IMG/VR virus record: IMGVR_UViG_3300028920_000001
Coordinates: 362,961 to 426,960 of that record
Direction: 5' to 3' (one strand)
DNA: 64,000 nucleotides
Origin: a virus
Each line of letters opens with the position of its first letter. Position 1 is the first letter of the stretch. A program made the translations under genes and the position numbers. The notes beneath the pieces are model-generated. The model saw only the letters and a program-made list of their open reading frames with translations, searched no databases and was not told the origin of the DNA. Below, piece after piece: positions 13,967-33,753 of the stretch.

Positions 13967-14245
13967 TTGCCTACTGAGCACGAAGAACCTACTCCGCAAT
14001 TAGCCCCTGGAATTGGATTTGTATTGGAAGGGGATGGGCGGTGGGATGTCCAGACAATTCCGTCGAAGGTAGTTGATTCGGCAGAATTTAATGGATATTT
14101 GACTATTCAAGGATATAAATGTGCAGTATTTATCACCCCTGAGGGTGAGCAATGGGCACAGAAGGTATCTGGAACTCCTGCCCCTAAGGGTGATAATGAT
14201 TTGACACAGATGGCTACTAAAATTGCTAATTTAACTTATAACTAA
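13967..14245 (+). CDS. Hypothetical protein, 92 aa
   Basis: A small acidic protein starting at TTG directly after the previous stop, with GAGAAG upstream as a possible ribosome site. It has no recognised motif. Its 3' end overlaps the end of the convergent HNH-Mom gene by 20 bases. Tight coupling to the 166 aa gene suggests that they work together. Confidence 0.5.
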   Translation: MPTEHEEPTPQLAPGIGFVLEGDGRWDVQTIPSKVVDSAEFNGYLTIQGYKCAVFITPEGEQWAQKVSGTPAPKGDNDLTQMATKIANLTYN

Positions 14246-15779
14246 ATTTGTGTTTTTCAGGGATTTTCATTTTAATTAAATTCATTTGATTAGCATATTC
14301 TAATTCGGTTAGTCCGATCTTTTTTCCTTCGTTGTATACCCATTTCTTATTGATTTGATTTCCATTGATATCTAAATATACATGACTAGTAGAAGTTAAT
14401 TTTTCGTATTTCCAATTTGAAGCTTTATATATAGTACCTTCGTGTCCTTGCATTGTGTCAGCAAATGACACTAGTATTTGAATTTCAGGATGACTTGATT
14501 TTATTAATTTAATGACTTGTCCTAAGATTTTGGAAGCTAAATTTTTCTTTTGATATTCCGGATGAATGCAAAATCGATCCAATTCTAATACTTGAGATAC
14601 TGTATAACCCATAGATGTGGCTACTTCTTTCCTGACTACCGGGGAAAATTTACAAATTGCAATTAGTTTATTGTCTAAGTATACTCCATAGTATATTTTA
14701 GCTGTTCTGCCATATTGAGCGTAATGGTATTTTTCGAGGAATATTCGAGTCATTTTAGGATCAGGATTTGATCTTATCAGGATTTGGTCTAAAGAAAAAT
14801 TGATTTGAGTATAATTTATTTTGGTTTTAGTGATTTGTTTATTCAGCCTTTTCCTGATTTCAGTTCGAATTCTATGACAATTGGCACATACTAATTCACA
14901 TTTGGCAATTTCTTGTTTAATAAAATTCAAACTTCGATTTTGGATCTTATTGATTGAAAAAGTTTTATTTTCAAGATGATCAAAATCTAATATCCAGTAT
15001 CGAAAATTCCGTTTGCAATCTGTACATTGTTTATTGTCCTTTTGAGATATTATGTATGCTTTAGAGGTTCTTAATTTTCTATCTAAATTATTATTATATT
15101 GTCTTAAGCAAGTCTTGCAATAAGAATGTCTATATCCAGTTTTAAGAAGAGTAAAATTGTTAACGTGCTTAGATGTTTGACATTTGGCACAAAATTTAAC
15201 TGGATCTGAGGCTAATAAAATCGGAATTTCATTTATTTTGGGTTTGTATATTCTATTTTTATTAGTATCTATTTCGGTTTCTCTTGTAAAAGTTTCATCT
15301 CGATGACAATTGGCACATATTAATTCACATTTAGCAATTTCTGTTTGAATTCTAGAAATTTTCTTTTCATATAACTTAGAAATATTTGCAACTTTAGTAT
15401 TTAGCTGAAGATGATTAAAATCCATTACGCATTGTGGATAAATTTTTCCACATTTGGAACAAGACTTATTAAGTTTTTCTTCTCTAATATACTTGTATGA
15501 TCTTTGTGCAGTCTTTTTGTGCATTCTTTTTTCTCGTTCAGGATTATCCTTTCTCCATCGTTTAATTTTCTTTTTATGACATTCTTTACAAATTTGTCTG
15601 AATTGATAATTTTGAACAAATTCTCGGAGTTGTTTAGGGTCTTTACAATATTTACAAATTTGTATGAGAGATAAATTTTCAGAATAAAATTGCTGATACT
15701 CTTGGTTTTTCTTTTGATCTAATAATTTTCTTTGTTGTTTTTCTTCAGGTGTTCGTTTCATCCCAATACCATTATACAT
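14226..15779 (-). CDS. Double HNH nuclease fused to Mom-like GNAT domain
   Basis: A 517 aa, very AT-rich gene. Order of parts: zinc ribbon (Cys pairs at about 43-70), HNH domain 1 (about 105-160; CSKC, MDFNHL, CANCHR), second zinc ribbon (about 196-222), HNH domain 2 (about 247-305; CTDC, LDFDHL, CANCHRIRT), then a C-terminal GNAT-like domain (about 335-480). That domain carries LELDRFCIHPEYQKKN and SFADTMQGHEGTIYKASNW, the pattern of Mom-type DNA-modifying GNAT proteins, which modify adenine to evade restriction. HNH domain 1 has Asn where domain 2 has Asp in the central motif. I know of no standard Mom protein with such an N-terminus. An alternative start (ATG at 15761) would remove six residues. 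It may be a homing nuclease fused to an anti-restriction enzyme, or a targeted modifier. Confidence 0.75.
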   Translation of the reverse strand: MYNGIGMKRTPEEKQQRKLLDQKKNQEYQQFYSENLSLIQICKYCKDPKQLREFVQNYQFRQICKECHKKKIKRWRKDNPEREKRMHKKTAQRSYKYIREEKLNKSCSKCGKIYPQCVMDFNHLQLNTKVANISKLYEKKISRIQTEIAKCELICANCHRDETFTRETEIDTNKNRIYKPKINEIPILLASDPVKFCAKCQTSKHVNNFTLLKTGYRHSYCKTCLRQYNNNLDRKLRTSKAYIISQKDNKQCTDCKRNFRYWILDFDHLENKTFSINKIQNRSLNFIKQEIAKCELVCANCHRIRTEIRKRLNKQITKTKINYTQINFSLDQILIRSNPDPKMTRIFLEKYHYAQYGRTAKIYYGVYLDNKLIAICKFSPVVRKEVATSMGYTVSQVLELDRFCIHPEYQKKNLASKILGQVIKLIKSSHPEIQILVSFADTMQGHEGTIYKASNWKYEKLTSTSHVYLDINGNQINKKWVYNEGKKIGLTELEYANQMNLIKMKIPEKHKFSYKLN

Positions 15780-15846: not shown

Positions 15847-16530
15847 ATGGCACGTCAAGCTGAAGAGACTTATATTTATCGTCGTGGCGCTTCTCCAAAT
15901 ACGCGCGTCGCCATTAGTCAGAAGAATCGAGTTTTCTCGATTCCTTACGGCTCAACTACATTTAAACAAGTTGGCGTATTGTCAACATTTGATTATAATG
16001 AATCTCGTGCCGTAGATCCAGTTCGTGGAGTTGGTTTCGGCGATAAGATTCAAGAGCTGGTTCCTGGTGTGACTGAGCCGATGACAGTCACCCTTAATCG
16101 GACTCTTCTTTACACTGCTAGTTTGGCGCAGGAGCTCGGTTATCGAGGAGGAGTGGATGGTTTGGTCCGTTCGCTTCGTCACCATAAATGGCCGTTTGAT
16201 CTCCGATCCGAGTTGGTATTTTCTGAGTTAGTCTCTCATTATGACACGGCCCACTTCCAAGAGGGCTTGGCAACAGGTGGCGTGATCCCGGTACAGGACG
16301 GTAGTACTAATTTTGCTATGGTGACGTACTTCGAGGCGTGTTGGCTAAATTCCATTTCGATCAGTTTCCCATCGGATTCGGCGATCGTAATGGAAGATTG
16401 TTCGGCCACGGCTACGGACGTGACTGATGGAACTGCTCGGTACGAGCTTAGTCCTGATGGTTATGGTGATCTCATGGAATCTGGTAACAACCCGATCCTG
16501 GGTGCTGGTTCCAGGTTGTTCACTTCATAA
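15847..16530 (+). CDS. Tail tube protein (probable)
   Basis: A 227 aa, beta-rich protein with a strong AGGAG ribosome site. Size, beta-strand pattern and position (last gene before the assembly proteins and tape measure) fit the inner tail tube subunit of contractile tails, the partner of the sheath. It is followed by an 11-bp perfect hairpin, which suits a gene needing far more product than those downstream. The call rests mainly on context; I see no short diagnostic motif. Separation from the sheath gene by 11 kb is unusual. Confidence 0.65.
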   Translation: MARQAEETYIYRRGASPNTRVAISQKNRVFSIPYGSTTFKQVGVLSTFDYNESRAVDPVRGVGFGDKIQELVPGVTEPMTVTLNRTLLYTASLAQELGYRGGVDGLVRSLRHHKWPFDLRSELVFSELVSHYDTAHFQEGLATGGVIPVQDGSTNFAMVTYFEACWLNSISISFPSDSAIVMEDCSATATDVTDGTARYELSPDGYGDLMESGNNPILGAGSRLFTS

Positions 16531-30754: not shown

Positions 30755-33022
30755 ATGGGAAAAACAGAAGAAGCTAAAGCTAGATATCGGGCGATGCATA
30801 ATATTGCATCAACACAAGATCCGGTCAGAACTACTAAACAGCAATCCCAAAATGCTGATGATGCTAAGGCTTTCCTATGGATAGGGCGGATTCTCCATGT
30901 AGATGTGGAGACTATGGTTTGTTCTATTCAGATGGAATCAGGGCAGGGAATCTGGCATGATGTTCCTTTACCTGCTCCTGGAGGAGGTGGCCCTAGATCT
31001 TGGTCAGGAGTGATTCCAGAACAAAATTCGCGTGCTTTGATTGGATGGAAAAAATATGGAAATCGAGGCCATAAGCCCTATATCATTACATATTGGACGA
31101 TAGGGACATTTTCAGCTCGAGAATTTGAACCATTTTCAACAGTTGATCCAAATGACGCAAATTCAGTTTTGACAGCAGATGCCGATTTAGCTAATTTTCC
31201 AGAATTAAATTTTAATATTATTAGATTAAAGTCTAGAAAAGCTTATGCTGGAGACTGGATTGCAACTTCTAGTGGAGGAGCTCATGCTCAATTAGATAGA
31301 GACGCATATTTAACCAATCGAGCTAACAATGAATTTAGATTACGAGATTCTGATCAAACTAGTATTCATCAGACAGTAAATGAATTTACTACTAATGCTG
31401 CCGGATATTATCGAAGAGGATTGATTAAGAGGAATGCATACAATTTTCAATTAGATTTAGCTCTTCCTCTTTATGATTATGAAGAACAGGATTTTGATGA
31501 ATTTGTTGATAGTCGAATTATTACTGGTACAGATAATCCTCAGTACACTTATTTAACTAAAGTTGATACTCTTTCTCCTGCTTACAGTAAATTACGAGAA
31601 TTTGAATTAATTAATGAGGATGGAACTCCGGTATTTCCGAATAATCCGGATGATTTGGTTTATCCGTATGTTGTTACTCCTGATGGACAACGGATTAGTT
31701 ATGTGGTTAGAGGAGAGCATGAAACCAATTTTAATCAAACTAACGAATGCTATGTTGAAGATAGAATAGAAATGCGGCATGTTAGTGATGGAATAATGGC
31801 TGTCACTGAGGAGGGCGATGGATTTCAAATTGATAGAATTTCACCAGTTTTCATTGAAGATGTGAAAGGCACAATTGTCGGAAATGATCCATATACGGAG
31901 GCAGGACGTAAAACATATAAACGAGTAGTTAAAATGAGAGTGTTTGAGAAGGAAGAACAAAGTCTTCCTTCCAATACTCCTGTATTTGAACCGATCGATA
32001 CGTTAAAACGGCCTAATGACACTGATACTGTGGCTTTGGCTCGTTTGTTTAAAGTTCAGTGTCCTGCTGAGGGTAGTAGTTCGAATCAATATGCTTTTGG
32101 AATTTCTAAGGAGGGGCAAGTATTTTTACATTTACCCAAAGCAACGGTTGGTGAAACACGGGGTAGATCTCTTGATGCAAATATTATGGGAGCTGTTAAA
32201 GCTATCCTTGGATCAGATGGTAGTCGTAAATCAATTGATTTAACTACAAGTGGTGGGATTAGAGCTAAATTAGGCACGTTAGTAGATGATACTGATCCAA
32301 ATAATCCAGAAAATGTTTCTGCGGATTTTGAATTTGATGGCGTAGTCAGATTAAAATTCAATGGTCCGAAAGCGATAGAAAAGATAGTTGAAGGGAGTGA
32401 AACCACATTTTGTAGTCAAACTTCTGCTAGAGTGGCAGGAGATGTTACTGACATTGCCCAGGGTGGTTCTGTTACTGCTGAAGGAACTAAAGTACGACAT
32501 ATTGCTGGTGATGGAGGATATACTCGTCTAGTTGGTGGCGATTCCGGGATGACTCATCTTGGTAAAACTGATCGACAATTCGCTCAAGATCGAACATCTA
32601 CATTTGCAGTTAATGATACTAAATTAGTACTAGCCGGGGTAGATTCAACTACAGTAGTAGCTGGTAGTATGAGTAGGACAGTCACTACCGGTAGTATTTC
32701 ACATAATGTCGCGACTGGAAATCATAGTATCACGGTTGGAGTTGGTAATGCTTCTTTAACTACAGGTACTGGAAATGTATCGGTAGCAGCTGGATCAGGT
32801 AATGCTTCTTTAGCTGCGGGTGCCGGGGCTGCAAGTATTACTGCAGGTGCTGCCGCTTCTTTAGTTGGTGGCACTGTCGCTAATGTTACAGCACCACTAG
32901 TTAAAATTGGAACGGTGCCTGTTGGTGTGTGCGTGGCTGGAGTTCCCGGTCCTCCCGGTCCAATGTTAGACTATGTAACCGGTTTACCATTGAGGGGTAT
33001 ACCAACTATATTGGTAGGATGA
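30755..33022 (+). CDS. Baseplate spike protein (gpV/gp5-like)
   Basis: A 755 aa protein. Residues about 38-115 look like the OB-fold of spike proteins (FLWIGRILHVDVETMVCSIQ start, then a Gly-rich loop). The middle is a large insertion of unknown fold. From about 600, and most clearly at 638-710, a regular beta repeat rich in Gly, Ala, Ser, Thr and Val (GNASLTTGTGNVSVAAGSGN type) should form the trimeric beta-helix needle. The C-terminus has GVPGPPGP. No lysozyme domain is seen; the transglycosylase is supplied by an earlier gene. It is the membrane-puncturing tip at the centre of the baseplate. The stop overlaps the HNH gene start. Confidence 0.75.
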   Translation: MGKTEEAKARYRAMHNIASTQDPVRTTKQQSQNADDAKAFLWIGRILHVDVETMVCSIQMESGQGIWHDVPLPAPGGGGPRSWSGVIPEQNSRALIGWKKYGNRGHKPYIITYWTIGTFSAREFEPFSTVDPNDANSVLTADADLANFPELNFNIIRLKSRKAYAGDWIATSSGGAHAQLDRDAYLTNRANNEFRLRDSDQTSIHQTVNEFTTNAAGYYRRGLIKRNAYNFQLDLALPLYDYEEQDFDEFVDSRIITGTDNPQYTYLTKVDTLSPAYSKLREFELINEDGTPVFPNNPDDLVYPYVVTPDGQRISYVVRGEHETNFNQTNECYVEDRIEMRHVSDGIMAVTEEGDGFQIDRISPVFIEDVKGTIVGNDPYTEAGRKTYKRVVKMRVFEKEEQSLPSNTPVFEPIDTLKRPNDTDTVALARLFKVQCPAEGSSSNQYAFGISKEGQVFLHLPKATVGETRGRSLDANIMGAVKAILGSDGSRKSIDLTTSGGIRAKLGTLVDDTDPNNPENVSADFEFDGVVRLKFNGPKAIEKIVEGSETTFCSQTSARVAGDVTDIAQGGSVTAEGTKVRHIAGDGGYTRLVGGDSGMTHLGKTDRQFAQDRTSTFAVNDTKLVLAGVDSTTVVAGSMSRTVTTGSISHNVATGNHSITVGVGNASLTTGTGNVSVAAGSGNASLAAGAGAASITAGAAASLVGGTVANVTAPLVKIGTVPVGVCVAGVPGPPGPMLDYVTGLPLRGIPTILVG

Positions 33023-33753
33023 TGAAAAGGAAATGTTCAAAATGTGGAATTTCTAAGGATGAAAATGAATCCAATTTCAATAGAAGAGGTTATCCTAGAG
33101 TTGGATTTAGGTCTGAATGTAAAGAATGCTCTGCTAAATTAAAAAAGATGTATAGAGCTAACCCATTTGTTAAAAAAAGAGAAGCAACATATGAACATCA
33201 ATATAGAAAGACTGTAATGGGTAAGCTTAAAAAATCTAGACTTGAATCACGTCGAAAAAAAAATATGAAAATTAAAAATCGTAGATTAATTCAATCATTA
33301 AAATCAAATTCATGTACTGATTGTCATATTGTATATCCATATTATTGTATGGATTTTGATCATTTAGATCCGAATATTAAAAAATGGAATATTAATTCAA
33401 TCATGAATAAAGGAACTAATACGATTTTATCAGAAATACAAAAGTGTGAATTAGTTTGTGCTAATTGTCATAGATTGAGGGAATTCCACAGTAATATCAA
33501 ATTTTATGAATCATCTAGATATAAATCAGTATGGGATAGGATTCTTAAGATAATTAAAATAAAAAGTAAACCTTGTATGGATTGTGGAGGTCAATTTCAT
33601 TATTCTCAAATGGATTTTGATCATAAAAACGGAAAGATTCTAGAGGTAGCACGAATGAGGTATTCACCAAGTGTGTTTGATGAAATTAAGAAATGTGAAT
33701 TAGTTTGTGCTAATTGTCATAGAATTAGAACATATCAACGTGCAGTGGGATAA
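33019..33753 (+). CDS. HNH endonuclease, double HNH, free-standing
   Basis: A 244 aa protein starting at the ATG at 33019 (an adjacent ATG at 33022 is possible). It has an N-terminal zinc ribbon (CSKCG...CKEC), HNH domain 1 (CTDC, MDFDHL, CANCHRLR) and HNH domain 2 (CMDCGG, MDFDHKNG, CANCHRIRT). It is related to the N-terminal half of the HNH-Mom fusion at 14226-15779, sharing the KCELVCANCHRIRT block. It is very AT-rich and lies in a run of structural genes, overlapping the spike stop by four bases and the next gene's ATG by one. A homing endonuclease that copies itself into phages lacking it is the expected role. Confidence 0.85.
   Translation: MMKRKCSKCGISKDENESNFNRRGYPRVGFRSECKECSAKLKKMYRANPFVKKREATYEHQYRKTVMGKLKKSRLESRRKKNMKIKNRRLIQSLKSNSCTDCHIVYPYYCMDFDHLDPNIKKWNINSIMNKGTNTILSEIQKCELVCANCHRLREFHSNIKFYESSRYKSVWDRILKIIKIKSKPCMDCGGQFHYSQMDFDHKNGKILEVARMRYSPSVFDEIKKCELVCANCHRIRTYQRAVG

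Follow-up and report, generated by a model that had tools for sequence, protein, structure and literature searches.

What does a giant phage gain from a gene that joins nuclease units to a DNA-modifying domain in a single polypeptide? The question is raised by a gene in the window, by which we mean the whole 64,000-nucleotide stretch analyzed here (bases 362961-426960 of a 427-kb virus record). The gene lies at positions 14226..15779 on the minus strand and encodes 517 aa in one uninterrupted open frame (M7 is an alternative start). With a GC content of 28 % compared to 42-44 % in its flanks, it is oriented antisense to its neighbors in a region of conserved structural-type genes of a giant phage. 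On one side, the insertion site is flanked by a 92-aa gene (13967..14245, plus strand), which is conserved in relatives and overlaps the 3' end of the fusion gene by 20 bp. On the opposite side, there is a conserved 227-aa gene (15847..16530, plus strand; "tube gene" is a working name only) with 67-73 % identity in 11 contigs. Rfam and tRNA scans of the window returned no matches, so neither an intron nor insertion at a tRNA site is indicated, and PADLOC found no defense-system match for the protein.

The N-terminal part (residues 1-316) consists of two zinc-ribbon/HNH units, matched in two stretches by phrog_2255 (E=5.9e-47) and phrog_3106 (E=5e-37), which identifies a nuclease domain of the homing type. 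Zinc ribbon 1 (15579..15656, minus strand) contains C42, C45, C64 and C67, all invariant among homologues, and is followed by HNH unit 1 (15291..15470, minus strand; C107, C110, H123, C155, C158, H159), delimited by the same two families and the alignment. Zinc ribbon 2 (15111..15191, minus strand; limits approximate) was placed by sequence and alignment, and HNH unit 2 (14862..15035, minus strand; C252, C255, H268, C298, C301, H302) by the alignment and a phrog_2255 match to residues 192-322. The alignment with homologues shows that neither unit has lost a zinc cysteine or one of its two HNH histidines. The preliminary description had noticed that one HNH reads MDFNHL, and indeed the first unit has Asn at the position where the second has Asp. 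It had further suspected that this copy is impaired, but two homologues carry His at the same position (LDFHHL, LDFHHI), while the following His123, a histidine of the catalytic type, the last His159 and the zinc cysteines are retained. Impairment of the first HNH is thus not indicated, and the position appears variable rather than clearly broken. The Pfam and PHROG profiles gave HNH matches and no REase match for the window protein, which sets it apart from the jumbo-phage REase-Mom fusions, and its PHROG matches do not include phrog_559 or phrog_3339, the models that cover Hef-like proteins over their full length.

The C-terminal part (residues 317-517; 14229..14831, minus strand) had been described as Mom-type, and this assignment was borne out against ordinary N-acetyltransferases at the level of both sequence and fold. 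Residues 342-514 match Pfam Mom (PF25680) with 99.2 bits (cut-off 27.1; E=3.1e-28) and the C-terminus also matches the Mom-like phrog_1384 (E=2.3e-29), whereas the best generic acetyltransferase model, Acetyltransf_1, scores 26.2 bits. Mu Mom (8bv8) is the sole solved structure related by sequence (E=2.9e-9; none other at E<1). It also ranks first against an AlphaFold2 model of the whole protein (E=1e-11; ordinary GNATs follow at 1.5e-5), in which the Mom part mostly exceeds a confidence of 90 and the HNH half, of lower confidence, was left out of the analysis. Across the 47 related Mom domains, H352, Y353 and R402 are invariant and D441 is conserved in all but one; the 46 domains that extend to Y451 all retain it. 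In the alignment with 8bv8, H352/Y353, R402, D441 and Y451 fall on the HY, ELNR, SFAD and VVYQ residues of Mu Mom, and we take these counterparts to be the catalytic ones. The title of 8bv8 identifies the solved protein as the inactive mutant S124A, the alanine of which would correspond to the conserved S416 of the window protein. Based on these similarities, the Mom domain is probably active as an adenine modifier. From the families and the retained residues we infer that the HNH half cuts and the Mom half modifies.

The window gene is not the only one of its kind in this phage. Five Mom domains are encoded in the 427-kb genome, all of them fused to a nuclease, and three kinds of nuclease half occur. 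Two fusions are of the HNH type, namely the window gene (A) and a 484-aa paralogue at 352.3-353.8 kb of the record (B), the HNH pair of which is unlike that of the window gene. The remaining three (C, D and E; 627, 548 and 495 aa) combine a zinc ribbon and repeated helices with a Vsr/REase-like nuclease bearing an IECQGEYWHS motif, assigned by weak REase/Vsr matches in D and E and by motif and homology in C. The homing endonuclease models phrog_559 and phrog_3339 match C, D and E over their full length, Mom part included. HNH genes without Mom are present in the same genome as well. One of them, a 274-aa HNH-HNH paralogue (32929..33753, plus strand; phrog_2255 E=4.6e-38), is related to the nuclease half of the fusion and overlaps the end of a 755-aa structural-type gene. 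Such Mom-less paralogues indicate that Mom is not required for the spread of these genes.

Searching IMG/VR with the Mom alignment yielded 50 loci that encode related Mom domains, while viral contigs searched with a single protein and genome contigs scanned with the same Mom alignment gave no relatives. Once duplicates had been discarded and the five proteins of this phage included, the set comprised 47 proteins (L032 and L050 are apparently copies of paralogues C and D). Every one of the 47 is joined to a nuclease half (approximately 39 REase-like, six B-type HNH and two A-type HNH), and a solo Mom of this clade was not found among them. A neighbor search added two B-type proteins, resulting in a total of ten HNH-Mom proteins, eight of them B-type. 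The same fusion in another genome, which the preliminary description had proposed to look for, was found in L087 (6310-7932; = L029) as an HNH-HNH-Mom orthologue with 45-50 % identity at the same site. A tree of 45 Mom domains places this orthologue and the window protein as sisters (support 98/92), so the two A-type fusions group together; the B-type rows are not resolved. The best tree contains 4 changes of nuclease label, with 2 being the least possible, and the number of swaps is accordingly uncertain. For close pairs of REase-Mom proteins, to which this measure is confined, dN/dS values of 0.05-0.16 show both halves under purifying selection. At the sequence level, comparison with the relatives shows an old and conserved fusion with both halves intact. 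Two further arrangements were observed among the relatives: in L067:5689-6531, a Mom fusion that may be decaying, the REase half counted from the first start codon is only 75 residues long, and in Geobacillus phage PK3.6 (L026:2176-3358) the HNH gene gp43 overlaps a solo Mom, gp44 (Pfam Mom E=4e-36), as a split pair.

Comparison of related phages at fixed sites revealed how variable these genes are. The site of the window gene is always occupied in antisense orientation: by the orthologue in L087, by an HNH-HNH part (49 % identical to the window protein) joined to an REase and a Mom-like GNAT in L082, by zinc-array REase-GNAT proteins in L085, L086 and L088, and by only a short HNH of 98-125 aa in L079, L081, L084 and L089. 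Of these relatives, four thus have another protein in place of the large gene and four lack it, the short HNH remaining in all of the latter; no relative is fully empty at this site, as at least the short HNH is present (L083, which starts inside the site, displays the short HNH alone). Site E provides the clean case of presence and absence in related phages: the two neighboring genes, p124 and p424, nearly abut in L091, with a few bases from stop to start, and L092 carries an orthologous REase-Mom between them. At site B, what follows the neighboring gene is HNH-Mom in three phages (the present one, L094 and L111) and REase-Mom in L095, while L093 has neither fusion and a neighboring gene of 68 % identity. 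The search for site D returned near-identical contigs only. Presence, absence and replacement at three sites, with the nuclease swapped while Mom stays, is, as far as contig comparison can tell, the pattern of free-standing homing genes, for which such behavior at fixed sites is typical (review PMC2988022; phage survey PMC10448857).

Several details of the window-gene site are worth recording on their own. In L089 (3918-4944), the flanking 92-aa gene occurs twice, the first copy continuing in frame as an HNH-HNH nuclease. This looks like the insertion of a nuclease gene into the 92-aa gene with retention of a second copy. The three-part HNH-HNH, REase and Mom-like GNAT protein (L082:6037-7800) is a possible intermediate between the classes. 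Furthermore, a short antisense single-HNH gene (98-173 aa) adjoins the 227-aa gene in L079, L081, L084, L085, L086, L087, L088 and L089. Nearly all relatives keep it at this site but the window phage lacks it, and it may serve a separate function.

The fusion of a nuclease to Mom and its multiplicity per genome are already known. Iyer et al. (2021; PMC7824862) described REase-Mom fusions in jumbo phages, several per genome, noted five momylating enzymes in PA5oct and read these proteins as restriction-modification-like. The present phage likewise combines Mom and endonuclease in one chain several times over and has three proteins of the REase kind. In contrast to these, the window protein carries two HNH units instead of an REase half, and our site comparisons point to mobile homing-type genes instead of restriction-modification. 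HNH versions, the interchange of nucleases at fixed sites, an empty site and a link to Hef-like proteins are absent from that paper, and our literature search brought up neither a description of HNH-Mom fusions nor the evidence for mobility.

A second named group, the Hef-like homing endonucleases (phrog_559, phrog_3339; Campylobacter Fletchervirus, AR9, phiR1-37, PTm1), shares the N-terminal zinc/DNA-binding part, the nuclease, a C-terminal Mom-like GNAT and many copies per genome. It differs in its REase-type nuclease and more divergent GNAT, and none of the named members examined has an HNH. A C-terminal profile was built from named proteins of phiR1-37, CP81, AR9 and PTm1 and homologues from phiLo, a Lak phage, L082, L085, L086 and L088. 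It matched the Mom profile of this study with a probability of 99.6 (E=8.7e-24); in the PDB it found 8bv8 at E=2.4e-4, behind glyphosate N-acetyltransferase at 6.8e-5. Two of the proteins, phiR1-37 g171 and PTm1 ORF303, pass the Pfam Mom cut-off directly, and, besides paralogues C, D and E, the proteins of L082 and L085 are matched at full length by phrog_559 or phrog_3339. Relatives of one Hef-like protein occur in 764 phage records, with 10-12 per Fletchervirus genome, and are mostly annotated as homing endonucleases. For the Hef-like proteins of known phages in our collection (L021, L022, L023, L024, L025 and L027), the annotations do not mention the Mom-like GNAT C-terminus, and a limited literature search found no naming of it either. 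The structural matches to the window protein also include one from PA5oct that bears the annotation putative homing endonuclease; this supports the idea that momylating enzyme and homing endonuclease are two labels for one class. Compared with free-standing HNH homing nucleases (phrog_2255, phrog_3106; by analogy the T4 mob genes), the window gene has the same zinc ribbon and HNH repeats and is likewise an AT-rich lone gene between conserved phage genes, but those lack a modifying domain. Phage Mu Mom (PF25680, PDB 8bv8) shares fold and active-site residues with the C-terminal half, but is a solo protein without nuclease.

Taken together, we favor, with about even confidence, the reading that the window gene is a mobile nuclease gene of the free-standing, site-specific kind and that its protein additionally bears a Mom-type domain, probably active in adenine modification. 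The homing-type HNH, the identity of Mom and the idea of a mobile element with a DNA-modifying domain, all put forward in the preliminary description, are retained here; its impaired HNH copy is not. The comparison of relatives suggests an element that may both cut rival DNA and mark its own. In such a scheme, the HNH half would recognize and cut or nick a sequence in the neighboring conserved gene of an element-free phage, and repair of the cut phage would copy the element in. The least certain steps concern Mom, which, tethered to the same DNA via the nuclease half, might modify adenines of the carrier DNA, so that the carrier would be spared by its own nuclease and perhaps also by host restriction enzymes. 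A single chain would then cut the rival and mark its own DNA. A free-standing homing gene, unlike an intron, leaves its own target uninterrupted, and such protection would therefore be useful. According to the literature (PMC13096335), nucleases of this free-standing kind can act at a distance from the locus that encodes them, and donor alleles are usually poor substrates, so some protection already exists and Mom need not be the sole protector; the HNH paralogues without Mom lead to the same conclusion.

Other readings of the fusion have to be weighed against this mobile, self-marking element. The proteins might be a restriction-modification-like weapon, with Mom marking the whole phage genome, the nuclease destroying unmarked DNA of the host or of superinfecting phages, and mobility being incidental. 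A nuclease and a modifier in a single chain fit this proposal, which Iyer et al. (2021) made for the jumbo-phage REase-Mom proteins. We nevertheless consider it unlikely: five paralogues with different DNA-binding/nuclease halves, site-wise presence and absence, and nuclease swaps resemble homing genes, the HNH half belongs to a homing-type family, and the PA5oct protein is itself annotated as a putative homing endonuclease. There is similarly little probability in our eyes that Mom is an anti-restriction cargo of a homing gene, modifying adenines broadly and thereby paying for carriage of a nuclease with an independent activity. Mu Mom does shield DNA from host restriction (PMC6483171), and the existence of HNH-HNH genes without Mom makes it look like an addition; yet five copies of a cargo would be redundant, and a cargo would not be expected to be fused in every one of the 47 proteins examined, with no fewer than three kinds of nuclease half.

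That the Mom-like domain does not modify DNA at all, but helps in DNA binding or folding, or acetylates a protein, seems improbable. The Hef-like GNAT domains, divergent and also matching glyphosate N-acetyltransferase, lend this some weight, but both sequence and fold place the window protein much closer to Mom than to other GNATs, and the related domains show little or no variation at the catalytic positions. The concern that sequencing or assembly error had joined two genes, understandable for a single metagenome-derived genome and named in the preliminary description as something that would refute its observation, is practically void: the independent orthologue in L087, in which the two halves are joined in the same way and at the same place, excludes it, and eight further HNH-Mom fusions of type B exist.

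If the proposed mobile element is extended to all HNH-Mom, REase-Mom and Hef-like proteins, the attached Mom-type domain would modify adenines at the nuclease's own target. The result would be epigenetic self-immunity in single-chain homing restriction-modification elements with exchangeable nuclease halves, a generalization that we offer only tentatively. It would unite two labels, the momylating restriction enzymes of one author group and the homing endonucleases of the annotators. If true, it would explain, in a way open to testing, why free-standing homing nucleases do not destroy the genome that carries them, and these phages would supply adenine modifiers directed to particular sequences by natural targeting halves that can be exchanged.
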